Of a stretch of DNA of 64,000 bases, positions 21,906 through 61,404 are shown one piece after another. Origin of the DNA: an uncultured Eubacteriales bacterium (lineage in GTDB: Bacteria > Bacillota > Clostridia > Peptostreptococcales > Anaerovoracaceae); the NCBI GenBank assembly GCA_902774265.1, contig CACYHR010000006.1:22482-86481 (forward strand), given 5' to 3'. The first letter of the stretch is position 1. Every line of letters begins with the position of its first letter. The position numbers and the translations under genes were made by a program. Under the pieces are notes generated by a model. The model worked only from the letters and a program-made list of their open reading frames with translations, was not told the DNA's origin and did no database searches.

Positions 21906-21970
21906 CGGTTTATCTGCCCGGCGGACATCGGCTGTGACCCGTCCCGGGAACAGATAAACCGTCATTTTTG
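21906..21970 (+). terminator. Rho-independent-type terminator after glgA
   Basis: CGGTTTATCTG (21906-21916) is perfectly complementary to CAGATAAACCG (21951-21961). The long loop itself carries CCCGG...CCGGG, and the stem is followed by TCATTTTTG. This should end the glgCDA transcript, with some read-through into the amylase-MalQ gene possible. Confidence 0.7.
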
Positions 21971-22015
21971 CTAGATACCGGTATTGGAAACAGATATTTG
22001 GAAGGAAAAGACCTA

Positions 22016-43437: not shown

Positions 43438-46400
43438 ATGCAGAGAAAATTATCATTTAAATCCGTCATCACATTGCTTTTGTGCGCAGTGATGATGTTT
43501 ACAATGATGCCTGCAGCGGTTTTTGCCGCTGACAGCAGCGTAACGGATAAGACTGTAACACTTACTGAAGGCGATGTTGTAAAGAATTTTGTAAAGATCG
43601 GTACGGCATGTAAATCTGCTGACGAATCTGTTGCGTGGGTAGACGAGAGCGGCAGCCTGAACGCCCTTAAGGAAGGATCGACAGTGATCACTGCCGGTTC
43701 GGGCAGTTCTGCGATGAAATACATTGTGACAGTGAGCGATTACAGCGACGGCTCGGATGTAGTCGGACGGCTCAAGCTGATTGTACGCTGTGATGATGCC
43801 GAACAGTTCGCCGGAGGACACGCATATCTGCTGTTTACATCATACAAAGACGGACTGCAGATAAATACAGACGATCTGTATTGTGCATATGATATATCCG
43901 ACCGGTATTACAAGGATATCAGGGAGAGTATTGCCAATGGTTCAAACCACAGAGGAACTGATGCAGATAAATATTTCAGTTATACTGATGATGCAGATAC
44001 AATGGTCCTTGATCGCGGAGAACTCGTTACAATAGGAATGTACCGTGATTTTTCCATGAGTATGAAAGAGCTGATGAATGAATCTCTCAGGAACAGCTCT
44101 CTCTGGGCAGGTATACGCAGGGAAGGAAAGACCGCAGTGATCGAAAAAATATTCGGTCTTGCAGGCGGCGGAGAGAACTTCACTGAAAAATCATTCGATA
44201 AGGTCATTGCTCTGATCGGAAGACTGGGACTGGATTACAGTAAATGGATGGACGGAACAGTAAAGGGCGGAGTCTGCTTTAACAGAGAACTGTATGCCCA
44301 GAAACTGTCTGAGGATCAGTATGAGAATGTTTCATATGCAGTGGATATAACGCAGAATCAGCTCGACAGTCTGGCCGGAACACTCGGAGGCAGACTTGAT
44401 AAGTATTCGCTGTTCTGCGGCAACAGCGCTACACTTGCTGCAGATGCGTGGAATGCATCTGTGGGAACAAGAAACGGCAAAGATACGGCGTATAAACTCG
44501 AGGCAAAGGACAGATATGGCAGAATTCAGTATGATTCGCCGAACGGACTTAGAAAGAGTGTGATTTCAAGACTGCCGGGATACTGGCTCAATAATTCTAC
44601 CGCTGTGGCCGAACCTGATGCAGGATTCAGGGACAGCACAGGATGGGTATATGTCAGTGCTCCTGCGAAACTGAGCGGAGACGAGCCGGGGGCAGGATCT
44701 GAAGGAATTCTGAGAATATCCGTAAGCGGCGCCGAAGGTACGGATATTTCTACAGAGATATATACTAAAACTGACGGACAAAAGCATGAAATAAGTTCTG
44801 AAACAGTTCTTACCGAAGGGACAAAGATCTTTATAAAGCCATCCTTCGGTACGGATGTAACAGATTCGGATACGCTGTTCAGATATGCTCTTGCAGACAT
44901 AAGCATGAACGGCAGCTCTGTGTTTGATGATGAACATTACGATGCGGCTGAAGGTGCATATTATGTGCTGATGCCGGATAATAAGAACTCAAAACTGAAT
45001 GTAAAATATGCTGAGGCTGAACTGAAGGCCGTGGGAAGCAAGACGATACAGCTGGCGATCGGAAGCACTCTTGATATAGCTGATCAGGCTGAACTGATTC
45101 TCGGATCAGGCAGCAGTTCAAATCATATCAGATGGGGAATAATCGGAGACACTGCATCCGCAGATGTGCTGAAATATACCGATAAGACTCATCGCATCCT
45201 CAAAGCTTCTGCTGAAGGTGAAGCTGATATATGGGCATATGCTGACGGCAATGATCACATTGGTCTGATGTTCCATGTCGAAGTTTACAAAAACTTCAGA
45301 AACATGGTCAGGATCACATACAATGACGGCGGCGCACTTGACATCGTTATAAGCAGCGGTAAAGACAAAGGTAAGATCATTCCTGCTTCCGGATACCGTA
45401 TTCCGAAGGGAACAGTGATCGGATTCAGTCCTGCGCAGACAGATGGTAAAGTACTTGCAGCTCTTACATGCAATAAAAAACCGGTGGCTGCGGGAAAAAC
45501 ATGGAAAGCTGTCAGGAATACAGTCGTAAGGTACAGGATGGCAGCGGCTGCAGTCAAGGGAATGCCTTCGACGGTAAAACTCGCAAAGAAAGGTGACAAA
45601 TATCAGCTGAAGGCGAAGACAAGGTATACAGAAAGACTGATGAAGCTGCGGCCTGTTTATGACAGAAGCATCAAGTATGTTTCATCTGATCCTCTGGTGA
45701 CAGTATCAGAAAAAGGACTTATTAAGATAGCCGGTGATATTCCCGAGGGAGGAAAAGCTGTTTACGTAACAGCATATGCAGGATCCGGTAATTACAGCGT
45801 AAAAGCTGAATGCAGGGTGATCGTAGGCGATTACAAAGGATCGCGAAAGGTCGGAAAGCTTACGATAGTAGCTCGTCCGATATTGAAAGAACAGATGGTT
45901 GGACATGGCTGGATGCATTTTAAAGCGTATGAAGATACTAAAATGAATATCAGCTATTACACATACCATAAGCCTGCGTACAAGTTTGTCAGCCTGGTAC
46001 ATGACTACGAAAAGAATCCGGATAAATACGATTCCGATCCTGTTTTTTATAATGATGACGCGCTTAAGATAAAAGACCGCGAATCGTATTTTGATATCGA
46101 TTACAATGGAAAGCATTCAGATCCTGAGCCGGTCTCGGTCAAATCCGGTGACAGCATCAGCTTTACGAATTATATGTATGATGACGATGCTATTACTCCT
46201 ATAATCAATGCCCTGGCAAAAGGTGAAATCGCTACGAGTACTGAAGCGGCTGAACTGATCAGACAACTTGGGTATTACAAGGCAGGAAGCGAACTGTTTG
46301 ACGGTGAGAAAGCATTTGACGGACTGGTCGGGACATTCAGAGAAGTATACAGATCATCTCTCGCAGGTCATAACACGGCTAACGGTGAAGTCTTAGGTGG

Positions 46401-46758
46401 TATGAGTATCAACCGCGAATCATATAAGGCATTTACGCAGAATTATGTTCAGACACCGAATAACAGCTATTCGGTAGAGATCACAGCAGATGAACTGGCA
46501 GTTTTGTCTCAGTATCTCGCGGATCCTGCCAATAATTACGTTTCGCCATTTGTAATGAACTGCACTTCCGGAGCGACAGCTATGTGGAATCATACGCTGG
46601 CCGACAGACCTCAGTTCAGGGTCAAATCAGATCCGATGAAGTTCGTAAATGATCCAAGCGCTCTCTACATTGACCTGGAAAGACTGAATCTTCAGAAGCT
46701 TGACGGAGAGTTCAACAGGAATTTCATCAACAGGATAGTTGGTCCGGCTGCAAAATGA
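43438..46758 (+). CDS. Large secreted protein with two predicted permuted papain-like (His...Cys) domains and Ig-like domains
   Basis: A 1106-residue secreted protein: signal peptide at residues 1-31 (ends AAVFA-AD). Residues ~35-105 look like a BIG2-type Ig domain. Two homologous units follow at ~110-400 and ~810-1095. Each opens with a strand and a His (LIVRC...GGHAYLLF, H128; TIVAR...GHGWMHF, H823) and ends with the set NRE-x-Y, S-Y-x-V-x-I-T and a Cys-containing helix (FCGNSATLAADAW, C327; NCTSGATAMW, C1042). The His-before-Cys order is that of permuted NlpC/P60-like folds (YiiX/LRAT type), so thiol hydrolase or acyltransferase activity on wall or lipid is possible. Between the units are further Ig-like segments. 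No exact family is recognised; the start has AAACGGAG before it. Confidence 0.6.
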   Translation: MQRKLSFKSVITLLLCAVMMFTMMPAAVFAADSSVTDKTVTLTEGDVVKNFVKIGTACKSADESVAWVDESGSLNALKEGSTVITAGSGSSAMKYIVTVSDYSDGSDVVGRLKLIVRCDDAEQFAGGHAYLLFTSYKDGLQINTDDLYCAYDISDRYYKDIRESIANGSNHRGTDADKYFSYTDDADTMVLDRGELVTIGMYRDFSMSMKELMNESLRNSSLWAGIRREGKTAVIEKIFGLAGGGENFTEKSFDKVIALIGRLGLDYSKWMDGTVKGGVCFNRELYAQKLSEDQYENVSYAVDITQNQLDSLAGTLGGRLDKYSLFCGNSATLAADAWNASVGTRNGKDTAYKLEAKDRYGRIQYDSPNGLRKSVISRLPGYWLNNSTAVAEPDAGFRDSTGWVYVSAPAKLSGDEPGAGSEGILRISVSGAEGTDISTEIYTKTDGQKHEISSETVLTEGTKIFIKPSFGTDVTDSDTLFRYALADISMNGSSVFDDEHYDAAEGAYYVLMPDNKNSKLNVKYAEAELKAVGSKTIQLAIGSTLDIADQAELILGSGSSSNHIRWGIIGDTASADVLKYTDKTHRILKASAEGEADIWAYADGNDHIGLMFHVEVYKNFRNMVRITYNDGGALDIVISSGKDKGKIIPASGYRIPKGTVIGFSPAQTDGKVLAALTCNKKPVAAGKTWKAVRNTVVRYRMAAAAVKGMPSTVKLAKKGDKYQLKAKTRYTERLMKLRPVYDRSIKYVSSDPLVTVSEKGLIKIAGDIPEGGKAVYVTAYAGSGNYSVKAECRVIVGDYKGSRKVGKLTIVARPILKEQMVGHGWMHFKAYEDTKMNISYYTYHKPAYKFVSLVHDYEKNPDKYDSDPVFYNDDALKIKDRESYFDIDYNGKHSDPEPVSVKSGDSISFTNYMYDDDAITPIINALAKGEIATSTEAAELIRQLGYYKAGSELFDGEKAFDGLVGTFREVYRSSLAGHNTANGEVLGGMSINRESYKAFTQNYVQTPNNSYSVEITADELAVLSQYLADPANNYVSPFVMNCTSGATAMWNHTLADRPQFRVKSDPMKFVNDPSALYIDLERLNLQKLDGEFNRNFINRIVGPAAK

Positions 46759-46921: not shown

Positions 46922-46951
46922 GCAGCCGACTGAGGCTGCTGTTTTTTGTTT
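46922..46951 (+). terminator. Terminator with T-tract upstream of the OmpR-type regulator
   Basis: GCAGCC (46922-46927) and GGCTGC (46934-46939) enclose a 6-base loop and are followed by TGTTTTTTGTTTC. Together with the preceding hairpin it isolates the secreted-protein gene from the two-component operon. Downstream, TACAAT near 47008-47013 is a -10 candidate for the regulator. Confidence 0.65.
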
Positions 46952-47034: not shown

Positions 47035-47733
47035 ATGGAGAGAAGCATTCTGATCGTTGATGATGATAATGAAATTGCTGAAGCAATAGGGTTCTATCTG
47101 CGCAGCGAAGGTTACAAGCCTGTCATAGCGCTTGATGGGATCGAGGCGCTGAACATTATGCGGGACAATAACATAAGCCTGATCATAATGGACGTAATGA
47201 TGCCGGGACTCGATGGCATACAGACCACCATGCGCATCAGAGAGGAACACAACATTCCTATCATCATGCTTTCGGCAAAGTCTGAAGACTACGACAAGAT
47301 AACAGGCCTGAATGTCGGAGCTGACGACTATATGACAAAACCTTTTAATCCTCTGGAACTTATTGCGAGGGTCAGATCTCAGCTCAGGAGATATAATCAG
47401 CTGGGAAGCTCTGCTGAGGCTATCGGGGCCAATATATACAGGAGCGGCGGCCTCGAAATCGACGACAATGCGAAGTCGGTCAGTGTTGACGGTGAACCGG
47501 TATCACTGACTCCGATCGAATACGGCATATTGCGCTTCCTTACTGCAAGTGCCGGCAGAGTCTTCAGTATCGAGGAAATCTATGAGAATGTGTGGAAGGA
47601 AGAAGCGTACAGTGCGGAGAACACAGTAGCAGTCCATATACGCCGCATCAGAGAGAAGATCGAGATAGACCCGAAGAATCCGCGCTACCTCAAAGTCGTC
47701 TGGGGTATCGGATACAAAGTAGAAAAATACTAG
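47035..47733 (+). CDS. OmpR/VanR-type response regulator
   Basis: A 232-residue regulator with a receiver domain (D10-D11, phospho-acceptor D53 in LIIMDVMMPGLDG, K105-region MTKPFNPLEL) and a C-terminal winged helix (LTPIEYGILRFLTASAGRVFSIEEIYENVW, HIRRIREKI, VWGIGYKVE). The sequence is of the VanR-like subgroup. AAAGGAG precedes the ATG. The sensor kinase follows 12 bases after the stop. It probably responds to cell-envelope signals, judging from neighbours that encode secreted proteins; this is inference. Confidence 0.93.
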   Translation: MERSILIVDDDNEIAEAIGFYLRSEGYKPVIALDGIEALNIMRDNNISLIIMDVMMPGLDGIQTTMRIREEHNIPIIMLSAKSEDYDKITGLNVGADDYMTKPFNPLELIARVRSQLRRYNQLGSSAEAIGANIYRSGGLEIDDNAKSVSVDGEPVSLTPIEYGILRFLTASAGRVFSIEEIYENVWKEEAYSAENTVAVHIRRIREKIEIDPKNPRYLKVVWGIGYKVEKY

Positions 47734-47745
47734 AGGTTGATCGAT

Positions 47746-49629
47746 ATGGAAAAAGAATTAATGCCAAATGAAATTTACAGCGAAGACACAGCTGAAGAAG
47801 GAACTGAATGCGCGGCTGATGAAGGTAAAATTGCAAATAAAGGGCTGTATGTATTGCTCAGCATGCTGGTCACGGCTCTTGGTACAGCAATCGGGATCCT
47901 TGGCTCGGTGACAGTCGGAGTAGCTCAGCTGACAGATGCATCGAATTACTCTGAACAGGAAATGGAATTTGAAAGCGAAATGGAATATGCCGTTTCGTGG
48001 TTAGCAAAATTTTCCGGAAAGCATGTTCAGGAAGATTTTATCAGCAATGGGATAACCGTAATCATATTAATGTCTATTGCAGCCCTGATATCTCTGATAA
48101 TGCTGTGCGTCATGAGCGGCCGTTTCCGCAAAGATGAGAACGGCAAACCGGTCATGAACCGCTTTGACAGAATATGGAGCGAAATACATATCATGGTGAT
48201 GGCAGGCGCATCTGTCGGAGCAGTTTCTCTGGGGATTCCGATCATATACCTGATCGGCGCAGACAATAGTTTCGGATTGATAAAGCTTGCCGGGATTTAT
48301 GATCCTGTAGTCAGGAATGAGTATTTCTTCAAAATACCCAACAACACAGTATTCTGGTACTGTACGGCAGGAATGGCGGCTTGCATCTGGATCGCCCTGG
48401 TCTGCCTTATCACATTAGTGAAGAAGATAAAGGCGGGAGAACTGATCAACAGATCTCTTCTGGGCAGGATACTCGATCTGCTGGGCTGGGGCGCAAAACA
48501 GACAGAAGAGGGTGCAAAGAAGGCCGGAGCAGGACTCAGGAGCGCAGCCGGGAGCATACGGAAATTCTCGATCCCCGCGGACAGTGACCGAAACGCAGCA
48601 GGCAAATTAATGGTGAAATACTGTGTGATACTTCTGGCATTGATCGTTTTACCGGAGCTTGCGGGAACTTTCTTCAACAGCATTTTTGTATTCCTGATAG
48701 CTGAACTCGCGGCTGTAATTGCAGCGATAATATTTGTCATTCGCAGGATCGGGAAGCTGGCTGAGATAAGGGCAGGTATAATTGAAGTCAGGTCAGGAAA
48801 TCTTACCTATAAAATACCTGTGGATGAAGATGAAAACGGACCGAAAACCGATCTTGATAAGATGGCATCTGATATCAATCATATATCCGAGGCGACTAAT
48901 GCCGCTGTACAGAACGAGATAAAGAATCAGAGACTCAAGACCGATCTGATCAGCAATGTTTCACATGATCTAAAGACCCCGCTGACATCAATGATCAGCT
49001 ATCTGGATATACTGGAAAAAGAAGGGCTGGACAGTGAAGAAGCACCTGCGCATCTGGATATAGTCAGGGAAAAGACGGAGCGGCTCAAGACTCTGACCGA
49101 GGAATTGTTCGAGGCGGCAAAGGCATCGAGCGGCAACATCCCGTGCGAGATAGAGAAGATAGATCTGTCTGCACTGATAGATCAGTCCCTCGCGGAAATG
49201 GGAGACAGACTCAGCAGCAGGAATCTTGATATACGCAAAAAGATCAGCACAGATAATACTCTGGTGATGGCTGACGGTAAACTGCTGTACAGAGTGCTCG
49301 AGAATCTGCTAAGCAATATAAGCAAATATGCTCTCGAGGGCAGCAGAGTTTATATTGATGTTTCAAAACCTAAGCTGCAGCACTTCGGATCAGCCGATGA
49401 GTCTGATAAACTCCTTCTCGAAGTGAAAAACATTTCCAGAGACGAACTCAATATATCACCGGATGAACTGATGGAAAGATTCACGAGAGGAGACAGGTCG
49501 AGAAATACCGAGGGATCAGGCCTGGGTCTTGCAATCGCAAAGGATCTCACAAACCTCATGGGAGGAACATTTGACATAACAATAGACGGCGATATGTTCA
49601 AAGCATCAGTGCTTCTGAATGAAGCATAA
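47746..49629 (+). CDS. Membrane sensor histidine kinase (VanS-like)
   Basis: A 627-residue kinase. The N-terminal ~370 residues contain about six hydrophobic helices in two groups, unusual for a simple VanS, with a charged cytosolic loop rich in Gly/Ala/Lys (about residues 235-280). A HAMP-like region (AGIIEVRSGNLTYKIPVD) leads to the HisKA motif NVSHDLKTPLTSM with His near 407, then the ATPase domain: N-box LLYRVLENLLSNISKYA, and GSGLGLAIAKDLTNLMGG. I chose ATG 47746 over the TTG at 47737, since AGAGG lies 9 bases before it. It partners with the upstream regulator. Confidence 0.9.
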   Translation: MEKELMPNEIYSEDTAEEGTECAADEGKIANKGLYVLLSMLVTALGTAIGILGSVTVGVAQLTDASNYSEQEMEFESEMEYAVSWLAKFSGKHVQEDFISNGITVIILMSIAALISLIMLCVMSGRFRKDENGKPVMNRFDRIWSEIHIMVMAGASVGAVSLGIPIIYLIGADNSFGLIKLAGIYDPVVRNEYFFKIPNNTVFWYCTAGMAACIWIALVCLITLVKKIKAGELINRSLLGRILDLLGWGAKQTEEGAKKAGAGLRSAAGSIRKFSIPADSDRNAAGKLMVKYCVILLALIVLPELAGTFFNSIFVFLIAELAAVIAAIIFVIRRIGKLAEIRAGIIEVRSGNLTYKIPVDEDENGPKTDLDKMASDINHISEATNAAVQNEIKNQRLKTDLISNVSHDLKTPLTSMISYLDILEKEGLDSEEAPAHLDIVREKTERLKTLTEELFEAAKASSGNIPCEIEKIDLSALIDQSLAEMGDRLSSRNLDIRKKISTDNTLVMADGKLLYRVLENLLSNISKYALEGSRVYIDVSKPKLQHFGSADESDKLLLEVKNISRDELNISPDELMERFTRGDRSRNTEGSGLGLAIAKDLTNLMGGTFDITIDGDMFKASVLLNEA

Positions 49630-49758: not shown

Positions 49759-52700
49759 ATGGGGACGATCATAAAACGATGGCTGGGCGCAGGGCTTGCA
49801 TTTCTTCTTTTGTTCACACTGAGTCTGCAGGAAACGGTTGTATTTGCAGCGCCTTTGGAGTCTTACCGGGCGGAAGGAAGCCCGGCGCTGCTTTCTTCGC
49901 AGGAAGAAACGTCGGAGCAGGCGGAGCGCACGATCCTGCTGTATATGTGCGGCTCCAATCTGGAAACAGAGGCGGCGCTTGCCACGCTGAATCTGAAGCA
50001 GGTGCTCGGTGCAAAGTTCAGCCGGGAAAACAAGGTGCACGTTGTGGTGATGACGGGCGGCGCCGAATACTGGTGGCTGGATGAGGACGACTGTGTGATC
50101 CCGGAAGGGATGATGCCAAACTACTTTGATGATACGGAATATAACCGCATCTGGGAAGCCTTCGGATCGGATAAGGCAAACGAGTCGATGCGGAGCAAGC
50201 TGGTGCTGCTGGACGGCGACGGCATTACCGGAGACGGAGAAAACGCGAAAGAGGCATGGGACGAACTGATGTCCGACCCGAAGACACTGCGCGCGTTCAT
50301 CAATTTCGGAGCAGAAAGGTATCCTGCGAAAAAATATGACCTGATACTCTGGGATCATGGCGGCGGACCCGTCGACGGCTTTGCGGTGGATGATTACTGC
50401 CGCGAGCTCGATACCATGTCTCTTCCGGAAATCCTTGATGCGCTTTCTGATAACCAGGTGACAGCAAAAGGCGGAAAGTTTGATCTCATCGATTTTGACG
50501 CATGCCTGATGAACAGCGCGGAACTGAACCTTGCACTGGCGGATTATACGGATTATTACATTGCCTCCGCAGAGACGGAACCGGGCTACGGCCAGGATTA
50601 CCGGGGTTGGCTGAACATGCTCGGGGAAGCTCCTGAAATGAGCGTTCGCGCATTCGGCATGAAACTGGTGGAGGATTTTATCGCGTTTTATAAGGACAAA
50701 AACGGAAACGAAACCGATTACGGAACGCTGGCGCTTGTCGATACTTCCAAGCTGATCAACTCGGGGTTTGCCGATGCAGTTTCCGAACTTGCGGACGTAT
50801 TAAGGGCGCAGATCAATACACAGGATGCTCAGAACGACTATATGTATTATGATGAGCTGGACGCAGCAAAACGTTCCATTCAATACGGAAAACCGGATAC
50901 CTATTACCGGGATCTGGGAAACCTTGCCTCGCTCCTTGCTGTGACCAACAAAGAAGTATCCGCAAAGAGCATTGGAGAGGGCGGCTATACAAAACTCAAT
51001 GATTACGCCGGTGTTTCGGCTAAGATCCAGAGCATCTTAAATGACCCAAACATCATTTACAGCAAATACAGCGAGAGTCTGGTTTCGGAGGAGCCTGTGG
51101 TACTGATGGATGAGAATCAGGAGCTGCAGTATAAGAAGCTTAAGCCGAGCGGCATGTATATCTATCTTCCGGCGGTCCGTGACAGCGATTACGCGCTGGA
51201 GTATCTGGAATCGGTCACGGCTTCGCTTCCATACATTAAGAATGAAAAATCACGCAACGCTCTGCAGAATTATGCGAAAACGGCGGCGCAGTATGCACTG
51301 ATGGCAGATATTGGCTTCTACATTTCCTTCCTGTATGAAATCGGCACGCCGTTGGATGAGATCAATTATGACTATCTGAAAGAGTATCTGGAGGACAGCT
51401 ATCCGGAAGGCGCTGAAACCGAATGGGAGAAACGAATCCTGAAAATGGCAGGATACATTACTGAGAGTCAGGAAGAGGCGGAGCAGTGGATCCGGGGGAT
51501 CATCCGGCAGCAGACCTCCGATTTCATTCAGCCGGAGAATATTACGATCGATTCGAATCCGGACAAAAATTCATTCCGGATCGAAATCAAAAATACTGCC
51601 AAACGAGCGATCGAAGCTGTGAAAGCAAAGGTGATCGCGGAGCTGCCCGCAGTGCAGGCGTATCTGGAGGATGCTCCGGACGATGATTATTCCCGTGGCT
51701 ATCTGGCCTATCTGTATTCGCGTTATCCGGAACGATTCGACTGCAGCATTCGGACAGTTTACGGGATCCGGGATACCGGCGATCTGGGAATAGATTATGC
51801 TGTCGATTCGCTTGACACCATACTGGAAAAATACCGGGACTGGTACCTGAAGGATGGAAGCGTCTGGTATCTGGAAGATAACGATCAGACGGTTCAGGCC
51901 GTTGAGGATGCGGAAGGGAAGTATCATGCGGTCAAAACGGAACCGCTCAGCAAAAAACAGATTATGGCTTACATGATGTATCCGGATCCGAATAAAAAAG
52001 ACGGGACGATGAAAAACGGCTATCTGGTGTTTGAACCGGACGGGGATGACTGGGTGCTGTCTAAGATCAGCCTGACCGGATATGAGGGGGACCGACTGAT
52101 CCCGGTGAAAAAGCTCAATGAGCCTCTCAAGGGTGTTACCATGAGCTTTTCCGTGAAAATAAGCTCGTTCTATCTTACCCTGATCCCCATGTCCGAAACC
52201 GCGTTTACGGTTTCGCCGGACACCGCCGGTTCCGTGAAACTGCTTACCACCGATATCAGCAATGTGCCCGATATCCGGGATACGAACGCAGACGGAAACC
52301 CGGTGAGCCGGAGGATCGTTGTGTCCGATATCTACGGGACAGAATGCGATGTGAGTGTGCAGATCCCCGGCGGAAATCTGGTGGATGTTAAGGATCTGTC
52401 GGTGGAACCGGTTGTGTATAACGGAGGGGAACAGGGACCGAAGCTTATGTATAACGGTAAGGTCCTCAAAGAGAAAACCGATTATATCTGGTATAAGTCA
52501 GACGATACTAAGGCTTATAAAAACGCGGGAGAATATGCTGTTGAGCTGATCGGAAGAGGCCGCTATATCGGCCGGTGCAAAACAACCTATTCCATTCTGC
52601 CTAAGACGGGAACGCTTTCGGTCCGTTTATCCGGAACCGCCTTTGTCTGTAACGGGAAGGTGCAAAAGCCGGCTGTGAAAGCAGTGAAGATCGGAAATAC

Positions 52701-53403
52701 GGTGCTTTCCCCGGAGGACTATGAGGTGACGTATCAGAATGCCGAATCGAAAAAGGTCGGGATCTATACGGTGACCGTGACCTGCAAGGGCAATTACAGG
52801 GGCTCCGTGAAAAAGACGTATCGGATCATCCCAAAGGAAACGACTGTGGAATCTCCGCAAAAGGAGGATCAGGCAGCGGCGGACATTGTGGCAGAACTGC
52901 TCTGTACGATCCCTGAGGATGTCACAACTGCAGCCAAAGAACAGGTAGATGCCGCAAGGAAAGCTTATGATGCCCTGACTCCGGCTCAGAAAGCACTGGT
53001 CGATCCAAAGCTCGCAGACAGACTCGAAAGGGCAGAGGCATACATTGCGTCAGTCTGCAAATACAATGACAAGGTTAAGAAGGCCAGGGTTAAGAAAGTC
53101 AATATCAAGTCTGCCAGGGCGAAGAAGGGCAGAAAAGCTCTGATCACATGGAAGAAGCAGACCGGAATCAGCGGATACCAGATCGTCTATAGCACTTCAA
53201 AGAAGTTTACCGGGAAGACAACTAAGAAAGTCTATGTGAGCAGGAAGACGACCGGGAAGAACCTCAATAAACTCAAAGCCGGCAAGAGGTACTATGTCAA
53301 AGTAAGGACCTGCACATTAGTGAAAAATCCGACAACAGGGAAGAACGAGAGGATCTACGGCAGGAAGTACTCTAAAGTAAAGAGATTCAGAGCAAAGAAA
53401 TAA
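49759..53403 (+). CDS. Secreted clostripain-like (C11) cysteine protease with C-terminal repeat and FN3-like domains
   Basis: A 1214-residue secreted protein. Signal peptide residues ~1-31. The C11 peptidase domain spans about 50-430: TILLYMCGSNLE, the catalytic His in LILWDHGGG (H200) and catalytic Cys in IDFDACLMNS (C249). Clostripain-family enzymes cut after basic residues. After it come a long middle region of unknown fold, two Ig-like segments near 880-1030 (YNGKVLKEKTDY..., repeated as CNGKVQKPAV...), and a C-terminal fibronectin-III-like domain (ITWKKQTGISGYQIVYSTSKKF). Codon use changes along the gene: up to about 52,860 arginine is mostly CGN and isoleucine rarely ATA, whereas the last ~500 bases use AGA/AGG like the neighbours. 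GGAGGAAGG precedes the ATG. Confidence 0.88.
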   Translation: MGTIIKRWLGAGLAFLLLFTLSLQETVVFAAPLESYRAEGSPALLSSQEETSEQAERTILLYMCGSNLETEAALATLNLKQVLGAKFSRENKVHVVVMTGGAEYWWLDEDDCVIPEGMMPNYFDDTEYNRIWEAFGSDKANESMRSKLVLLDGDGITGDGENAKEAWDELMSDPKTLRAFINFGAERYPAKKYDLILWDHGGGPVDGFAVDDYCRELDTMSLPEILDALSDNQVTAKGGKFDLIDFDACLMNSAELNLALADYTDYYIASAETEPGYGQDYRGWLNMLGEAPEMSVRAFGMKLVEDFIAFYKDKNGNETDYGTLALVDTSKLINSGFADAVSELADVLRAQINTQDAQNDYMYYDELDAAKRSIQYGKPDTYYRDLGNLASLLAVTNKEVSAKSIGEGGYTKLNDYAGVSAKIQSILNDPNIIYSKYSESLVSEEPVVLMDENQELQYKKLKPSGMYIYLPAVRDSDYALEYLESVTASLPYIKNEKSRNALQNYAKTAAQYALMADIGFYISFLYEIGTPLDEINYDYLKEYLEDSYPEGAETEWEKRILKMAGYITESQEEAEQWIRGIIRQQTSDFIQPENITIDSNPDKNSFRIEIKNTAKRAIEAVKAKVIAELPAVQAYLEDAPDDDYSRGYLAYLYSRYPERFDCSIRTVYGIRDTGDLGIDYAVDSLDTILEKYRDWYLKDGSVWYLEDNDQTVQAVEDAEGKYHAVKTEPLSKKQIMAYMMYPDPNKKDGTMKNGYLVFEPDGDDWVLSKISLTGYEGDRLIPVKKLNEPLKGVTMSFSVKISSFYLTLIPMSETAFTVSPDTAGSVKLLTTDISNVPDIRDTNADGNPVSRRIVVSDIYGTECDVSVQIPGGNLVDVKDLSVEPVVYNGGEQGPKLMYNGKVLKEKTDYIWYKSDDTKAYKNAGEYAVELIGRGRYIGRCKTTYSILPKTGTLSVRLSGTAFVCNGKVQKPAVKAVKIGNTVLSPEDYEVTYQNAESKKVGIYTVTVTCKGNYRGSVKKTYRIIPKETTVESPQKEDQAAADIVAELLCTIPEDVTTAAKEQVDAARKAYDALTPAQKALVDPKLADRLERAEAYIASVCKYNDKVKKARVKKVNIKSARAKKGRKALITWKKQTGISGYQIVYSTSKKFTGKTTKKVYVSRKTTGKNLNKLKAGKRYYVKVRTCTLVKNPTTGKNERIYGRKYSKVKRFRAKK

Positions 53404-54029: not shown

Positions 54030-55244
54030 ATGAGAGACAATAAAATGCATAGTCATAGAAAAATGCCCGAATTACTATTAATATGGTCGTTTTTTCTTAT
54101 ATCTTTTTTTTCAATGTCTTTTATTGTATATGGTGAGTGTGATCATGTTTTAAATAATTCCTGTAAGGACTATAAATGTACATATGTGGATGCAAATCAT
54201 CATCAAATCTCAGGTTATTTTGATAGCTGTGGTGAGTATGTGAAGATGCTTGCTGATCACAAATTATCCAGTAATATAAAATATGTAGAATATAATGATA
54301 GTTTTCATAAGATAACAGGATATTGTGGAAGGTGCGAATCTTTCAATGCAGAGCAGATCGAGGCACATAATTTCCAAGAAAAACCAGAATGGGTTACATA
54401 CAAAGATCAAGGTAAAGTTAATGATAGATATCATGGAAGAATGTTTAAATGCGCAAATTGCGGTAATAAAAAAGTAGTTGATGAAGAACATTCATATGGT
54501 CCTTGGAAGGTAAGTAAAGAAGCTACATGTGCAGAAACTGGCTTAAAGATAAGACCGTGTTGGCATTGTGAATATGTTTTGGAAGAAACTATACCGTCAA
54601 CGGAAAATCATAAATGGAGTAGCTGGGTAATAACTAATAAAGGTAATTGCTTGACAGAGGGACTAAAGGAACGTACTTGTTTGACATGCGGCAAGGTTGA
54701 AACTGAAGCAATACCTGTGATTGGCGCGCACGATTGGAAAAACTGGAAAACAGTAAAAGAGCCTACGGTTTTTGAAACTGGGGAAGAAATACGCACTTGT
54801 TATAACTGTGAAGAGTCTGAAACAAGAGCAGTAGAGAAAATAAAAGCTTATGCGAAATTTAAGAAAAGCTGCTATACCTTGACTGCCGGGAAAACATTGA
54901 GTCTTTCTTCCAAGGTGCAAAAGGGTAGAGGTGATTCAGTCAAGAAGTGGAAGTCGAGCAGAAGAAAAATTGCTACAGTCTCAAGTTCAGGCAAGGTAAA
55001 GGCGAAAAAGAAGGGAACAGCAAAGATAACTGTTATCCTAAAATCTGGGGAAAAGGCTACTGTTAAGATCAAGGTTAACGAAAAAAAGAAAAAATCTAGC
55101 GGTGGAGGAGTCGTATACTGGGTAGACAATGGATCTGTTTACCATTACAGCATTAACTGCCCAACGCTTGCAAGATCCACAAATATCCATTCCGGTACTA
55201 TTGCGAAGAGTAGAAAAAGCAGAGCATGCAAAGTCTGTGGATAA
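54030..55244 (+). CDS. Secreted protein with Cys-x-x-Cys repeats, a BIG2-like domain and a terminal YH-C-CxxC module
   Basis: A 404-residue exported or anchored protein with a hydrophobic N-terminal segment (residues ~14-36). Residues ~35-125 hold scattered Cys pairs. From ~150 to 275 there are three ~42-residue repeats of the pattern H-x-W/Y-x-x-W ... G-x-x-x-R-x-C-x-x-C (ATCAETGLKIRPCWHC; NCLTEGLKERTCLTC; TVFETGEEIRTCYNC), common in clostridial surface proteins. Residues ~283-355 form a BIG2-like Ig domain (YTLTAGKTLSLSSKV...GKVKAKKKGTAKITV). The last 45 residues are a module VYHYSINCPTLARS...RACKVC, shared with two other proteins in this region. Binding of metal or wall polymer is possible. 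AAGGAGGG marks the start. Confidence 0.7.
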   Translation: MRDNKMHSHRKMPELLLIWSFFLISFFSMSFIVYGECDHVLNNSCKDYKCTYVDANHHQISGYFDSCGEYVKMLADHKLSSNIKYVEYNDSFHKITGYCGRCESFNAEQIEAHNFQEKPEWVTYKDQGKVNDRYHGRMFKCANCGNKKVVDEEHSYGPWKVSKEATCAETGLKIRPCWHCEYVLEETIPSTENHKWSSWVITNKGNCLTEGLKERTCLTCGKVETEAIPVIGAHDWKNWKTVKEPTVFETGEEIRTCYNCEESETRAVEKIKAYAKFKKSCYTLTAGKTLSLSSKVQKGRGDSVKKWKSSRRKIATVSSSGKVKAKKKGTAKITVILKSGEKATVKIKVNEKKKKSSGGGVVYWVDNGSVYHYSINCPTLARSTNIHSGTIAKSRKSRACKVCG

Positions 55245-55297
55245 TTTAGATAAACTATTGATACTGTAAGATTTGTTCATATGTGAGGTATTGCTTG

Positions 55298-55951
55298 ATG
55301 AAAATCGGGGTTAGAAAACCTAGTGTCAAGAAACGAATAAAAGCCAGGACAACTGGAAAAATAAAGAGAAAGATTAAAAAGGCTACGAATCCCTTTTATG
55401 GTAAAAAAGGGATGGGGATGATAAAGGATCCTAAAAAGTCTGTTTATAATAAGGTCTATAGAAAGACCACTGTCAGCGTTGATGATTTGTTCAAAAGTAA
55501 GCCGGCAAAGAAGAAGAAAAAATCATATAAAAATAATACATATGCCAATAAGAGTAAAGCATATAGAGAGATACAGCGTCCGTATGAAACAAAACAACTA
55601 CATAGTAAGGATAATGTTGCAGGCGATTGGGAAACTAAAATCGGTTGTGGTGGCTTGCTGGCTTTATTCATCGGATTTTGTTACCTTTTCTCAAATATCC
55701 CTTTAGGTATATTGTTGCTGTTATTGGGTATATTATGTGTATTCATTGCAGGTAAAATCCAAGCCGCAAAAGAAAAGAAATCTGAGGAAATACAAACTGA
55801 ATATGTAGTGTATCAGGAGCAGAATTATCAGAATGTAGGCTCTGTTCAAGATTGCTGCGCTTTAGACGAATCATCGTTCGACATTGGCGATGATACTGCT
55901 ATAGATAACGGGTCGGAGAATGATTTAGATAAGAGCAAAGAAGAGGATTGA
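55298..55951 (+). CDS. Hypothetical membrane protein with a basic N-terminal domain
   Basis: A 217-residue protein. Residues ~5-60 are very basic and contain KARTTGKIKRKIKKATNPF, then YGKKGMGMIKDPKKSVYNKVY and KTTVSVDDL, a stretch I know from many uncharacterised Bacillota proteins, often next to membrane helices. Residues ~115-155 form two hydrophobic segments (GGLLALFIGFCYLFSNIPLGILLLLLGILCVFIAG). The tail is acidic (DIGDDTAIDNGSENDLDKSKEED). No function is known. I chose ATG 55298 since TGAGG is 9 bases before it; the GTG at 55283 is an alternative. It follows the Cys-repeat protein gene by 53 bases. Confidence 0.55.
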   Translation: MKIGVRKPSVKKRIKARTTGKIKRKIKKATNPFYGKKGMGMIKDPKKSVYNKVYRKTTVSVDDLFKSKPAKKKKKSYKNNTYANKSKAYREIQRPYETKQLHSKDNVAGDWETKIGCGGLLALFIGFCYLFSNIPLGILLLLLGILCVFIAGKIQAAKEKKSEEIQTEYVVYQEQNYQNVGSVQDCCALDESSFDIGDDTAIDNGSENDLDKSKEED

Positions 55952-56021
55952 AAAACTTAAATTAACAGCTTTTATAATTAGCGCGGATTTAAATAATCAA
56001 TGTTTTATATTGAATCTAACA

Positions 56022-57503
56022 ATGACTGATTTGATACATATGAAGATTAAAGATATTATTAAAGAGAAAAAGAGTAAGAATCAGCCAGTAGTTGTTGAAC
56101 TGACCAGATATTTCAATTGTCCTGTTTGTGATCATGTCGTGCAGACCGGAGATCACGTTTGTCCTTATTGTGGAGCGATGTTTGATGATATAGGCAATAT
56201 TGTATCAAATCCGACTGTAGACAAAATCAAGTATTTCTTCAGGAGAAAGAAAGCGGCTGTTATTGTTATTGCGGCTCTTGTTGCAAGTATGGCCGGAGTG
56301 GATGCCGGTGTTGACTATATGACAGCCTTTTCCGTACCTGATGTTTCCGGAATGACTGCTGTAGAGGCGCAAACCACGCTTTATAATGCCGGGTTTGATC
56401 CTGATGATGTTTCATTTTACTGTGATGAAACCTTATCTGACTCTGATGTTGAGGATGGAGAATATGAGGTCATATCGCAGTCGGTGCCTGCCGGTGAGAA
56501 GGTTCATTCTGATGACGGGATCTTTCTTGAGTGTAATGATATTTACAAAGAGCGTACTGAGGCTATAACAGCCTGCAGATATGAAAAGGCTGAAGAGGCT
56601 ATCAGGACCGCAAAGCAATATGATTACACTTATGAACTGACAGACATTGCTAAGGACAACGGTTTTGAGCAATCATATCGTGAGCTGTCTAATGTAGAAA
56701 AGAATAATTTCTATGTATATGAAATAGCTTCCATCTCAGATGATGATAGATCGGTTATTTTCAAAGTCGACAGCAAAAAGAATATTGAAAAAGAGATCTC
56801 ACGATTATTCACAGGCTGCGTTGATGAGCATGTTTCCGATGCTAAGGACATAGCAAAGTCGTTGGATTTTGAAGTCGAGTGTAAGGACTATAATGGTTCA
56901 TCGGCCAGTGCAAATTCAGACCGTGTGATCATTGGTCTGGAGGATGTGGATTTTACCGATAAATCAGTTGTTTTGAAGACCGATACAGAGCAGCATATCG
57001 AAGATGTAAAAATAATAAGCACTCTTAAGGACAAGATTCCTTATAAGGGACTTAAAGAAAGATATATTTCGGATACAGCTGTAGGTGACTACGATCGCTC
57101 AGAAGACAGCGACGACGATTATGATCTGGGTGATGTTGAAACTGCATATTACTGGATGTCAGATGACGGCAAGTATGATGTCCTAAAGGTAGTATGCAGG
57201 AATGGCACTGTCAGAAAGGTCGGTAAAAAGTATAAGAAGGTATACTGGAAATCATCACTGCCGGATTTCTCTGCGGATAAGGATGCATATGATGCGGAGG
57301 TTGCGGCAAGAGCTGCAGCCAGGGCTGCAAAGAAAGAGAAAGAAGCAGCCAGAGAGGCGGAAAAAGAAGCCCAGGTCTGGATCCCGAGGTCAGGGAGCTG
57401 TTATCACAGCAATGAGTATTGCAGCAATATGAAGAATCCTACAAAAGTATCTCTCTCAACGGGCAAGAGCATGGGATACAGAGCTTGTTCAAAATGCTAC
57501 TGA
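56022..57503 (+). CDS. Zinc-ribbon / single TM / PASTA-like protein with terminal YH-C-CxxC module (paralogue 1)
   Basis: A 493-residue membrane protein. An N-terminal zinc ribbon (CPVCDHVVQTGDHVCPYC, about residues 34-51) is followed by a membrane helix (KAAVIVIAALVASMAGV, ~80-97), then a PASTA-like domain (VPDVSGMTAVEAQTTLYNAGF...VISQSVPAGEKVHSDDGIFLEC). Residues ~180-430 are a region of unknown fold with repeated D-x-x-V-x-F-K-V-D strands, then an Ala/Lys/Glu helix, then the terminal module SGSCYHSNEYCSNM...GYRACSKC. Cytosolic zinc ribbon and external PASTA-like part are inferred. Start is uncertain: ATG 56022 is used, TTG 56010 and ATG 56040 are possible; no clear ribosome site is seen. 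A paralogue lies at 59180. Confidence 0.7.
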   Translation: MTDLIHMKIKDIIKEKKSKNQPVVVELTRYFNCPVCDHVVQTGDHVCPYCGAMFDDIGNIVSNPTVDKIKYFFRRKKAAVIVIAALVASMAGVDAGVDYMTAFSVPDVSGMTAVEAQTTLYNAGFDPDDVSFYCDETLSDSDVEDGEYEVISQSVPAGEKVHSDDGIFLECNDIYKERTEAITACRYEKAEEAIRTAKQYDYTYELTDIAKDNGFEQSYRELSNVEKNNFYVYEIASISDDDRSVIFKVDSKKNIEKEISRLFTGCVDEHVSDAKDIAKSLDFEVECKDYNGSSASANSDRVIIGLEDVDFTDKSVVLKTDTEQHIEDVKIISTLKDKIPYKGLKERYISDTAVGDYDRSEDSDDDYDLGDVETAYYWMSDDGKYDVLKVVCRNGTVRKVGKKYKKVYWKSSLPDFSADKDAYDAEVAARAAARAAKKEKEAAREAEKEAQVWIPRSGSCYHSNEYCSNMKNPTKVSLSTGKSMGYRACSKCY

Positions 57504-57527
57504 TAGATTCGGAAACTCAGATAGTCA

Positions 57528-58535
57528 ATGAAATATAATTTCAAAAGAAAAAGCAAATACAGAAAAATAGTCCTGTTGTCCCTGATGTTGATGGTATTAG
57601 GGGCAATAGGTTTTATTGCATTTTTCAGTTTTGATGCTGATATTGAGACAGGCAATATAAGAGAGAGTATCGGGATTAAGTCTGACCTGCTGTCGTTGCA
57701 GTATGACGGTGATATATCGGTAGAAATCAATGAGAATCGTCCCGTATTTTCAGATGAAGAACTGGAAACTGCGCAAAAAGGGTTTGAAACATACTCAGAT
57801 CTTGATGAAATAGGAAGGTGTGGGACAGCAGAGGCGAGTATTTGTACCGAAACAATGCCGGCTGAAGGTGAGAAAAGAACCGGCATGGGATCCGTGTATC
57901 CTTCCGGCTGGCAGGCAATCAATTTTTGGAGCAGATGTCACTTGATAGGATGGCAGCTTTCTGCAGAAAACGCCAACGAGAGGAATCTTATAACCGGAAC
58001 AAGCAGACTTAATCTATCAGGGATGTTGCCTTATGAAAATAAGGTCGCAGAATATATACATGAACATCCCGGGAATCATGTATTGTACAGAGTAGAACCG
58101 ATATACGATGGAGATGATCCTGTTGCGTCAGGAGTGAGCATGCAGGCCGAGTCAGTTGAGGATAATGGAGAAGGTCTGGCTTTCAATGTTTATGTGTTCA
58201 ATTTTCAACCTGGATATATTATCAACTATAGTAAAGGCACGGTCGTTGATGATCCGGATCACCAAACAATTATAACTATCGAAGATAAGGTCGAAGAATA
58301 CACAGGTGAACCGATAACTATCGATGATGCAGTTGTTGAAGGCAGCACCGGCGATGTAAGATATATCTATTACACTGACGAGGAAGCCAAAATAAAGACT
58401 ACGGAGAATGATGGAGCCTTTAGCAATGGGGCAGCTCCGACAAAGCCAGGGATATATCGTGTCAGGGCAGTTGTTGCCGGGGACAATTGGTATCCTACGG
58501 CTGCAAGTAACATAGCGATGCTGGAAATTGAATAA
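57528..58535 (+). CDS. Membrane-anchored DNA/RNA non-specific endonuclease (DNA-entry nuclease type)
   Basis: A 335-residue protein with an N-terminal membrane helix (residues ~12-33, IVLLSLMLMVLGAIGFIAFF). The nuclease domain spans ~70-245: GMGSVYPSGWQAINFWSRCHLIGWQLSAENANERNLITGT...NLSGMLPYE. This matches the beta-beta-alpha metal (NucA/EndA-like) family, with the catalytic His at H138 in RCHLIGWQL and the metal-binding Asn in ANERNLITGT. The C-terminal ~90 residues form a strand-rich domain (YTGEPITIDDAVVEG...TKPGIYRVRAVVAGDNWYPTA), like MBG/Ig-type bacterial surface modules. The nuclease part probably faces outward and could degrade or take up DNA. It sits between the two zinc-ribbon/PASTA-like paralogues. 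Confidence 0.85.
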   Translation: MKYNFKRKSKYRKIVLLSLMLMVLGAIGFIAFFSFDADIETGNIRESIGIKSDLLSLQYDGDISVEINENRPVFSDEELETAQKGFETYSDLDEIGRCGTAEASICTETMPAEGEKRTGMGSVYPSGWQAINFWSRCHLIGWQLSAENANERNLITGTSRLNLSGMLPYENKVAEYIHEHPGNHVLYRVEPIYDGDDPVASGVSMQAESVEDNGEGLAFNVYVFNFQPGYIINYSKGTVVDDPDHQTIITIEDKVEEYTGEPITIDDAVVEGSTGDVRYIYYTDEEAKIKTTENDGAFSNGAAPTKPGIYRVRAVVAGDNWYPTAASNIAMLEIE

Positions 58536-58663
58536 GCAGTGATTGTGCTGATCTGTCGTGTGAATGATAACTTGCTTTAACTTAGGGATATCATCTGAAA
58601 TAGACTTTCAATTATGTCACTAAAATTATAAATGTAGAATAATACTGAGGAGGAAAGGTTTTT

Positions 58664-59029
58664 ATGAGTTTGATTGGTAACATCCTATGGTTCATATTCG
58701 GAGGCTTTCTAAGTGGATTGTCTTGGATCTTTTCCGGGGTGATATGGTGCATAACAATTATAGGGATTCCCTATGGTAAACAGTGTTTTAAATTTGCATC
58801 CCTCTCATTTTCCCCATTTGGAAAAGAAGTTGAGTACGGAGGAGGCGCAGTCTCAACAGTGGTGAATATTGTCTGGCTATTATTCTTTGGAATATGGATG
58901 GCTCTCGGAAATATGATGATCGGAGTGTTGTGGTGCATAACAATCGTAGGCATCCCGTTTGGGAAGCAATTTTTCAAGATTGCCAAATTATCGCTGACTC
59001 CGTTCGGGGCGAGGGTAATATCAAGGTAG
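58664..59029 (+). CDS. YccF domain-containing membrane protein
   Basis: A 121-residue membrane protein built from two copies of the YccF unit: FSGVIWCITIIGIPYGKQCFKFASLSFSPFGKEV and MIGVLWCITIVGIPFGKQFFKIAKLSLTPFGARV. Each unit has a hydrophobic helix before it. The family is widespread and has no established function. AGGAGGAAAGG lies about 9 bases before the ATG. A loose hairpin with TTTTTT follows at about 59,106-59,135. Confidence 0.92.
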   Translation: MSLIGNILWFIFGGFLSGLSWIFSGVIWCITIIGIPYGKQCFKFASLSFSPFGKEVEYGGGAVSTVVNIVWLLFFGIWMALGNMMIGVLWCITIVGIPFGKQFFKIAKLSLTPFGARVISR

Positions 59030-59179
59030 ATTTATAATCACTTAGTATCTGAGATGTGAGAATTTAAGATGGAGAGATCTTTGAGTTTGTGGATATGGTG
59101 TAATGAACGGCGGTAGCAATTGCCCGTCTTTTTTATGCTATAATAAAACGCTTGGGTCTAAGAAAGGATTTTCAAAGGC

Positions 59180-60859
59180 ATGAGAGCATTTGAATTTAGA
59201 AGATATCTAGTTTCCAGGAATTATTCTGAAGCCGATATCAAAACTCATATTGATAATGTCCGGCATGTTGAAAAGGCCATTGATAAAACTGCTGATAATA
59301 TACCATCCAGGGAATCCGCAGAGAGTCAAATCAAGTGGCATGTTTTTCCGTGGAAGAGGAAGGACCTGCTTGATTCTTTAAGCATATACTTGTCTTTCAA
59401 AAGTTCATATCGTGCACCGTCATTTGTAAAAATTAAGAAATTATATAAAGAATGTCCGGAATGTGGAGGCCAGACACCTCTTGGATCTACATTTTGCAAG
59501 AATTGCGGTGCCGCTATTGGCAGAACCCAGTTTTTTCAAATAAATGCAATCTATGATTCCGTTGAAGATAAATGGAATAATCACAGGGTTGTTGTAATAA
59601 CAGTTGCTGCGGTGATAGCGGCTGCGATCATCGCAATCGCTTTTAATATCATAACAGCCTTCTCGTTATTTGATGTAGTTGATAAAGAGGCCAAGACTGC
59701 GTATGAGATGCTTGTTGAGTCAGGAATACAGGAGAATAAAATCTTATTTGAGTGTGAAGGCGAAAGTATCGATAAAGATGTTGCATTACATGGAGAGTAT
59801 GTAGTCATTTCTCAGCTCCCGGAGGCTGGTGCAAAGGTGCATAAGTCATCGAGAGTAACGCTTTCTTGCAAAGATTTGTTTGCAGAGAGAACATCTGCGA
59901 TCTCAGGTTGCAGATATTCATCTTACGATGACGCAGTCAGCACAGCAGAAAAGTATGGGTATAAATGGAAAACGGAAAATGTTGACGGAAGTAGGGAAGA
60001 CCGAGATCAATACATCTTTTCAGTGGATGATCAAAATGACACCGATAAATCCGTTACATTTGTTCTTGATTCTAGAGAGCATATTGAAAAATGGATAAAA
60101 GATGAGGCAAAAGATTATATTGGCAAGTCTTTTTCTAAAGTCAAAAAGCTGAAAAAAGTATTAGGCTGCGCTGTTGAAGGCTTAGACTATTATGATTATC
60201 CGGTAGAATTTGAAGATGATGAATATATGATTACAGGTTTTAATAGCTTCAGCTTCAAGGACAAAAAACTGATTTTTAATGTGGACTCAGAGTATCATCT
60301 TGAGGAACTTGATTATATCGAAAAACTAAAAGACAAGATCCCTTTTAAAGGAATGCCCGAAGACTATATTGATGATACAGGTGCAGGAGAGCATACAAGT
60401 GAGTCAGATGATGAGGAATCTGGTACGACAGAATATATCTGGAAATCAAAGGATGGTAAATATGATGTATTGAAGGTCATTTGTGAAGATTACGAAGTGA
60501 CAGAGGTTCATAAACTATCAAAAGAGATTTTCTGGAATAATGATCTCCCTGATTATTCTGCAGATGGAGATGCATATTATGCCGAGCAGGAGAGAATAGA
60601 AGAAGAAAAAGAAGCTGCATTAAGAGAAAAAGCAGAAGAATACGCAACTGAAGCAAGAGATAGGATGAGTGTATTCTATACAAGATCAGGAACTTATCAC
60701 ATAAGCGGCTGTGGAGATTTGATGCAGGCTAGCTGGAGCGGTGAGACAACATATGGTGTTGCAAAGAACAGGTATCATGCCTGCATGCACTGTAATCCAG
60801 ATACTTATTGCGAGAGATCATTTGATGATTTTGTCAGTGAATACATGAGAAATCATTAG
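59180..60859 (+). CDS. Zinc-ribbon / single TM / PASTA-like protein with terminal YH-C-CxxC module (paralogue 2)
   Basis: A 559-residue paralogue of the 56022 gene product. It adds a ~90-residue N-terminal helical domain (EFRRYLVSRNYSEADIKTHIDNVRHVEKA). Then follow a zinc ribbon (CPECGGQTPLGSTFCKNCGAAIG, ~94-116), a membrane helix (VVVITVAAVIAAAIIAIAF, ~137-156), a PASTA-like region (DKEAKTAYEMLVESGI...VVISQLPEAGAKVHKSSRVTLSC), an extended region parallel to paralogue 1 (LKDKIPFKGMPEDYIDDT versus LKDKIPYKGLKERYISDT), a Glu/Ala helix and the terminal module SGTYHISGCGDLM...RYHACMHC. A further 20 residues extend past the module. AAGGATTTTC is a weak ribosome site before ATG 59180. Confidence 0.72.
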   Translation: MRAFEFRRYLVSRNYSEADIKTHIDNVRHVEKAIDKTADNIPSRESAESQIKWHVFPWKRKDLLDSLSIYLSFKSSYRAPSFVKIKKLYKECPECGGQTPLGSTFCKNCGAAIGRTQFFQINAIYDSVEDKWNNHRVVVITVAAVIAAAIIAIAFNIITAFSLFDVVDKEAKTAYEMLVESGIQENKILFECEGESIDKDVALHGEYVVISQLPEAGAKVHKSSRVTLSCKDLFAERTSAISGCRYSSYDDAVSTAEKYGYKWKTENVDGSREDRDQYIFSVDDQNDTDKSVTFVLDSREHIEKWIKDEAKDYIGKSFSKVKKLKKVLGCAVEGLDYYDYPVEFEDDEYMITGFNSFSFKDKKLIFNVDSEYHLEELDYIEKLKDKIPFKGMPEDYIDDTGAGEHTSESDDEESGTTEYIWKSKDGKYDVLKVICEDYEVTEVHKLSKEIFWNNDLPDYSADGDAYYAEQERIEEEKEAALREKAEEYATEARDRMSVFYTRSGTYHISGCGDLMQASWSGETTYGVAKNRYHACMHCNPDTYCERSFDDFVSEYMRNH

Positions 60860-60885
60860 GATGAATAGTTTGAGGAGAAAGGCAA

Positions 60886-61404
60886 ATGAATTCACTGAAA
60901 TGTCCTAACTGCGGCAATATAGTAGTGAATAACTCTAAATATTGTGTGAAATGTGGATCGTATTTAATCGACAACAAGGAGTTCATAGATTCAGCTGCTG
61001 ATGATGTTAATCGTGAAAAGCAACAATTGTTGGGGGATATTTATTTTTGCGTTTCTGATTCGGTCGATACGTCATTAAAGAAGTCTTTGGATGCGATCGC
61101 AAAGAAAACTAAATATGTTTACGACTTGATTTTAAAGAGACCTTATATGTATGAAGATGCAAGGCTGCTGATTTCCAGAACTATGTATAAGACCCTGTGC
61201 CAGGTATCGGAGTTAAGCGACCTTCAACGAAAGAAGATAGAATATAGGGCGCAGTTGGCAACGGTAGAGGATTGGCTCGAAAAATATCAGAAGGTTTTGG
61301 ATGAAATTACTGATGCGCTGGTAGAACAGGGAGTAAGTGATCTGGATATAGATATTACAGTTTTAGATTCAAACGATACTGTTGAGTTCTTTTTGAAAGA
61401 GTAG
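60886..61404 (+). CDS. Zinc-ribbon protein of unknown function
   Basis: A 172-residue soluble protein that begins with a zinc ribbon (CPNCGNIVVNNSKYCVKCGSYL, residues 5-26). The remainder is mostly charged helix, including a coiled-coil-like stretch DLQRKKIEYRAQLATVEDWLEKYQKVLDEITDALVEQ. There is no membrane segment. AGGAGAAAGG precedes the ATG, 26 bases after the paralogue 2 stop, so the two are co-transcribed. No family beyond the ribbon is recognised. Confidence 0.65.
   Translation: MNSLKCPNCGNIVVNNSKYCVKCGSYLIDNKEFIDSAADDVNREKQQLLGDIYFCVSDSVDTSLKKSLDAIAKKTKYVYDLILKRPYMYEDARLLISRTMYKTLCQVSELSDLQRKKIEYRAQLATVEDWLEKYQKVLDEITDALVEQGVSDLDIDITVLDSNDTVEFFLKE

Follow-up and report, generated by a model that had tools for sequence, protein, structure and literature searches.

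Which kind of protein is encoded by the large gene located between araA and a two-component gene pair in the genome of an uncultured Eubacteriales bacterium, and what could it do outside the cell? In this study, we analyzed this gene in a stretch of 64,000 nucleotides of contig CACYHR010000006.1 (hereafter the window). A preliminary description of the locus had proposed a secreted protein of 1106 residues carrying two clearly related units, each with a His near its start and a Cys near its end. The single open frame was confirmed and a Sec-type signal peptide was recognized by eye. The two units (A and B; Table 1) share 27% identity over 265 columns with an E-value of 6e-10 (BLASTP, two-sequence comparison), and phmmer gave 8.7e-11 for the same pair. 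His128, His823, both NRE motifs and the SY-x-V-x-IT motifs lie at the positions proposed earlier. The same pair of units is present in two other proteins (L021 and L052), and for three A and three B units held-out profile scores were 53-107 bits, while shuffled decoys scored 11.0 or less. Judged from these sequence comparisons, the duplication is not due to chance and is inherited. The bacterium's own genome (about 91% complete) yielded no further locus with these units.

For the analysis of conserved positions, 11 units from eight proteins were aligned, comprising three A units, three B units and five units of single-unit relatives (one from genome G504, two from G1012, and one each from G1090 and G1151). 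The His column holds His in all 11 units and the Cys column holds Cys in 10 of them, the exception being Ser330 in unit A of the window protein; the His precedes the Cys column throughout. Unit B has the predicted catalytic His before the Cys, as in permuted NlpC/P60 enzymes, and unit A has Ser in the Cys column. A second MAFFT run left the His, the Gly before NRE, and the Trp and Asn after the Cys invariant, and N, R, E, N and C nearly so. As unit B shares only 18-22% identity with eight of the ten remaining units, this retention argues for selection on the His/Cys pair. The residue before the His is Pro in unit B of L021 (8074-9000) and of L052 (2814-3728) and Gly in the other nine units.

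Profiles were also tested by leaving out groups of units. In five such tests, with 1,936 to 2,114 of 2,200 shuffled decoys scored per test, held-out units reached 28.1-111.9 bits and the best decoy in any test 13.0. The hardest splits were weaker (E-values scaled to a million sequences): a profile of the five single-unit relatives gave unit B of L052 16.1 bits (E 0.39) and that of L021 28.4 bits (E 6e-5), with 9.4 for the best decoy, and a profile of seven long units gave L054 22.8 bits (E 0.0026) and L032 25.6 bits (E 4e-4), with 11.1 for the best decoy.

Nucleophile, spacing and fold of the units

In unit A, Cys327 had been taken as the counterpart of Cys1042. This was not borne out by the 11-unit alignment, in which the Cys1042 column is occupied by Ser330 in unit A. 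The residues in the Cys327 column are C,V,H,S,K,N,T,G,I,T,T, no other unit having Cys there, and the pairing was rejected. Variability of the residues singled out, which the preliminary description had named as evidence against its view, thus applies to Cys327; both His residues and the Cys1042 column are conserved. Because unit A holds Ser in the Cys column, two equal catalytic centres are unsupported. The Ser330 codon is AGC, and the unit A codons of the orthologues in this column are TGC (L021) and TGT (L052). In a gapped view, AAC AGC GCT ACA of the window stands against AAC AGC TGT GCT ACA of L052, so that, as a possible reading of the codons, the difference may stem from loss of the Cys codon and gain of another codon immediately upstream, not from a substitution. 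On either reading, unit A of the window protein is without a Cys at the nucleophile column, and it retains His128 and the Trp-Asn that follows the start of the helix.

Among the three double-unit proteins, unit A has 51 unique residues in the window protein, 18 in L021 and 51 in L052, and unit B has 50, 33 and 45, respectively. With L052 assumed as outgroup, a relative-rate chi-square worked by hand was about 15.8 for unit A and 3.5 for unit B; the former value indicates that unit A changed faster in the window protein than in L021. Such faster change fits a loss or change of catalysis, and a slow L021 lineage would fit equally. Most likely, to judge from the alignment, unit A is either inactive or altered, perhaps with a role in substrate binding; a Ser-based activity or one relocated to Cys327 is less likely.

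Seven units are long, with a distance of 200-222 residues from the His to the Cys column; the remaining four are short, with distances of 125, 136, 137 and 101. Published spacings are 105 for BcPPNE (His49/Cys154; PMC3142127) and 108 for Tox-Act1 (H43/C151; PMC12994826). As the short relatives lie near these values, the long spacing is best read as an insertion, and the inserted part is largely helical in both structural models, which are of low confidence. The earlier suggestion of an undescribed branch therefore holds in that the long spacing marks a distinct sub-branch; the spacing itself is best explained by an insertion.

In the low-confidence models, the His stands at a strand start in both units, and the first residue of a helix is unit residue 228 (Ser330) in unit A and unit residue 245 (Cys1042) in unit B. 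In a second structural comparison, both unit models had TseH (6v98) as their top hit among solved structures. MARTX RID (5xn7) and CLN5 (6r99), the latter presumably of papain-like fold, matched weakly over the whole unit with low Z. YiiX and LRAT chains were not among the structural matches listed, which carries no evidential weight. On the sequence level, the shortest relative (L054) matched Lnb_N (PF13387, DUF4105) over positions 25-165 of 175 with E 2e-4 and 21.4 bits, just below the cut-off of 22.2. DUF4105 by sequence and TseH by structure thus indicate the same corner of the superfamily.

Proposed function and rival explanations

The explanation that we prefer, and hold to be fairly probable, is that of an exported protein with two diverged permuted NlpC/P60 domains, of which unit B is probably a working thiol enzyme and unit A is altered. 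In the proposed mechanism, a strand close to the N-terminus of each unit would begin with the catalytic His, and a helix some 200-220 residues further on would begin with the nucleophile, a gap so wide because this branch carries an insertion of roughly 65-120 residues. Outside the cell, unit B (His823, Cys1042), probably active to judge from alignment and model, would attack an acyl ester or amide; unit A, with Ser330 instead of Cys, would be inactive or altered. As substrate, acyl groups of lipids or lipoproteins are the preferred prediction because the nearest clades, DUF4105/Lnb and TseH, are reported to act on them (PMC12994826).

It is unlikely that unit B is instead a peptidase or peptidoglycan amidase cutting a peptide or cell-wall amide, with unit A as pseudo-enzyme partner. 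For such a role speak the canonical NlpC/P60 enzymes, which cut peptidoglycan, the permuted enzymes of PMC3142127, which are concluded there to be cysteine peptidases or related enzymes, and rumen RflaF_05439, a proposed peptidase with two tandem canonical-order modules, the first of which has Ser for Cys in Ruminococcus flavefaciens strain 17 (PMC3573020); a clostripain-family protease gene (49759-53403) also lies nearby. Yet in the window protein the His precedes the Cys, the nearest clades DUF4105, TseH and Tox-Act1 are reported as lipid-acting (PMC12994826), and the Pfam search gave this protein no match to a cell-wall-binding domain.

Partner domains of the relatives bear on two further explanations. 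The two single-unit proteins of G1012 carry CBM_2 (two stretches), TSP3 and C-type lectin domains, and L053 carries VWA and TSP3; these partners are extracellular binding modules. Together with the missing Cys of unit A in the window genome, they would suit a non-catalytic adhesion or carbohydrate-binding module, in which the fold is kept for binding and His and Cys are structural relics. We regard this as rather improbable, as conservation of both residues at such low identity argues for selection on the pair. The CBM_2 and C-type lectin domains could also bring a thiol acyl-esterase to polysaccharide, so that acylated plant or host glycans would be the substrate, and the nearest permuted clades are reported to act on acyl groups (PMC12994826). 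No carbohydrate-binding domain over the cut-off was found, however, in the window protein or in either double-unit orthologue. We also know of no superfamily member with glycan-esterase activity, a point barely covered by the literature consulted, and this counts against the glycan-esterase explanation, which is doubtful.

The poor models, the absence of a significant Foldseek match for the unit models and the lack of a direct profile match all weigh against a permuted NlpC/P60 assignment, and would suit an unrelated fold with a coincidental His/Cys pattern. Such a fold is improbable in view of the near-threshold Lnb_N match of L054 and of TseH, which ranked first among solved structures for both units in the second comparison. 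With His/Cys conservation added to these two matches, the permuted NlpC/P60-like reading of the preliminary description remains the best one, and the papain-like fold is supported but not proven.

Relatives, distribution and gene surroundings

Two narrow peptide patterns were scanned against one genome per species (84,980 species) and returned one locus, L021 from Clostridiales bacterium SIG258, which encodes a 1254-aa orthologue with both units; owing to the narrow patterns this count is a lower bound. Whole-genome profile searches yielded further relatives. G504 was found with E 1.9e-12 (profile without G504), the two G1012 proteins with 3.7e-7 and 1.4e-6 (profile without G1012), and G1203, G1090 and G1151 with 4.2e-72, 1.8e-20 and 2.4e-7 (profile containing none of them); E-values of G504 and G1012 in later searches are given by construction, as both were already in the profile. 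G1203 encodes both units in one 1424-aa frame. G1218 matched with E 6.8e-13 in an 83-aa frame with an internal TGA stop and was left out of the alignment. Weak rows were dropped in the searches that found G504 (nine genomes, E 0.004-0.12), G1012 (two genomes, E 0.006 and 0.011), and G1203, G1090 and G1151 (two genomes, E about 0.005), and in another class search (four genomes, E 0.016-0.049).

Accepted matches occurred in six of 299 genomes of the taxonomic family that yielded G1203, G1090 and G1151, the G1218 fragment counted, and eight of these 299 matched at E ≤ 0.01. In the window's own taxonomic family, the full-length protein matched over the units in none of 196 other genomes (E ≤ 0.001), and five matched, all within residues 4-107 at the Ig-like end. 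Among 391 genomes of the class, G504 was the only accepted match besides the window's genome; profile A2 gave no accepted relative beyond G000 among 398 genomes of the phylum (four weak rows, E 0.03-0.09), and the short-unit profile A7 found only the window's own genome (E 3.4e-5) among 109 genomes of the class. With so few accepted matches in 299, 196 and 391 genomes, the family seems to be rare and unevenly distributed across the genomes covered. Five scans of viral contigs found no relatives, no plasmid matched unit B, the L029 unit or the L054 unit, no phage matched unit A or the L029 unit, and PHROGs gave nothing convincing over the units.

By eye, G504 has a C-terminal membrane anchor and L054 a lipoprotein signal. 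The genes L057 (4221-7475, minus strand) and L058 (4449-7373, minus strand) lie in one genome, and the product of each combines two CBM_2 stretches with TSP3, C-type lectin and, at the C-terminus, a short unit. Neighbouring genes varied between the loci viewed in an informal comparison.

Table 1. Features of the gene and its product (window coordinates).
Feature	Position	Strand	Basis
Open reading frame, 1106 aa, secreted double-unit protein	43438..46758	+	one open frame
Sec-type signal peptide, cleavage near A30/A31	43438..43527	+	read by eye
Weak Big_2-like Ig domain, residues 36-93	43543..43716	+	E 0.0061, below Pfam cut-off
Unit A, residues 103-411, permuted NlpC/P60-like, nucleophile column without Cys	43744..44670	+	BLASTP/phmmer, alignment, model m50fb041c3d63
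His128, invariant His of unit A	43819..43821	+	11-unit alignment
NRE motif of unit A, residues 282-284	44281..44289	+	unit comparison, alignment
Cys327 (TGC), variable column, 3 residues before model helix	44416..44418	+	alignment, model
Ser330 (AGC), in Cys column	44425..44427	+	alignment, codon comparison
Linker region, residues 412-797, no family match	44671..45828	+	Pfam search
Unit B, residues 798-1106, permuted NlpC/P60-like, His and Cys kept	45829..46755	+	BLASTP/phmmer, alignment, model m3f654318e750
His823, invariant His of unit B	45904..45906	+	11-unit alignment
NRE motif of unit B, residues 992-994	46411..46419	+	unit comparison, alignment
Cys1042, predicted nucleophile, first helix residue in model	46561..46563	+	model, alignment
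Terminator-like hairpin and T-run, 3' of gene	46922..46949	+	hairpin scan

Ig-like domains had been described around the units. The window protein showed one sub-threshold Big_2 stretch (16.9 bits; cut-off 22.8) and nothing else of this kind; its orthologue L052 has Big_2 over the cut-off (43.6 bits), and an Ig-like nature of the linker is a guess. The hairpin with T-run after the gene is weak on its own, since three terminator-like hairpins were found in the region and shuffles gave a mean of 2.1.

Downstream, a VanR/VanS-like two-component pair (47035-49629) adjoins the clostripain-family gene, whose 1214-aa product (Peptidase_C11, plus strand) has weak Big_3 and fn3 stretches. A block at 54030-61404 (plus strand) has a lower GC content (0.35-0.41 in four 2-kb steps) and encodes a Big_2 protein, two proteins combining PASTA with a zinc ribbon, a YccF protein and a DNA/RNA non-specific endonuclease; as a guess, it may be an acquired cluster. 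Further upstream, a single 1105-aa frame (21968-25285, plus strand) combines alpha-amylase and GH77 4-alpha-glucanotransferase domains.

Comparison with known systems

The units probably represent an unnamed, apparently rare branch of permuted NlpC/P60-like domains, where unnamed means without a family model in Pfam and NCBIfam as searched and the literature covered comprised open-licence papers on the superfamily. Both collections gave no named family over units A and B of the window protein, and another weak row (EFR3, E 0.35) is meaningless. Such a branch, secreted, duplicated and with carbohydrate-binding modules fused to some of its relatives, would extend the range of the fold, and the natural Ser-for-Cys difference in one of two linked copies is well suited to asking if Ser can stand in for Cys here or if one head turns into a binding partner. 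A more far-reaching proposal, unlikely as a whole, sees the units as members of a new family of permuted NlpC/P60 acyl-enzymes that work outside the cell, probably in Clostridia. Its proteins would be double-headed or fused to cellulose-binding and C-type lectin domains, with one head keeping Cys and, in this lineage, the other moved to a Ser (or relocated Cys327) centre, and their substrates would be acyl groups on polymers of the cell surface or of plant fibre.

Among known families, Lnb_N/DUF4105, the lipoprotein N-acyltransferase of Bacteroides and kin, is His-first and Cys-last like the units. It differs in that the units of the window protein carry an insertion, are paired in a secreted protein and give no match: PF13387 was not listed for the window protein (E ≤ 1) or for relatives other than L054 (E ≤ 10), and among 99 genomes of the class it had one match, below the cut-off (E 0.002), in a search whose control was found in 1 of 14 genomes. 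One branch of the DUF4105 clade is reported to be enriched in Firmicutes (PMC12994826), and DUF4105 is listed among papain-like families in an article that also discusses families with Ser for Cys (PMC10318531). Lnb, LRAT, Tox-Act1 and TseH are reported as permuted NlpC/P60 clades acting on acyl lipids (PMC12994826); not all permuted members do so, as the C97 deubiquitinases show (PMC10318531). TseH and Tox-Act1, permuted effectors with phospholipase activity (PMC12994826), have the same His-Cys order but no sequence match to the window units, and general family searches revealed no secretion-system genes near the gene.

YaeF/YiiX (C92, PF05708) and LRAT (PF04970) are likewise permuted with the Cys in the C-terminal part (PMC3142127). 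Neither profile was listed for the window protein (E ≤ 1) or its relatives (E ≤ 10), although HMMER filters discard most matches above about 0.1, and the BcPPNE spacing is about half that of the long units. MARTX RID, described as permuted papain-like (PMC3142127), and CLN5 differ from the units by the lack of a sequence match. Canonical NlpC/P60 (C40, PF00877) was not listed for the window protein, and its Cys-before-His order is reversed. RflaF_05439 is alike in being secreted with two tandem NlpC/P60 modules, but has the canonical order (Cys109 before His215) and a dockerin (PMC3573020), and is by its order a parallel and not a relative. The double-unit protein is thus interesting as a variant of a known superfamily, not as a new kind.
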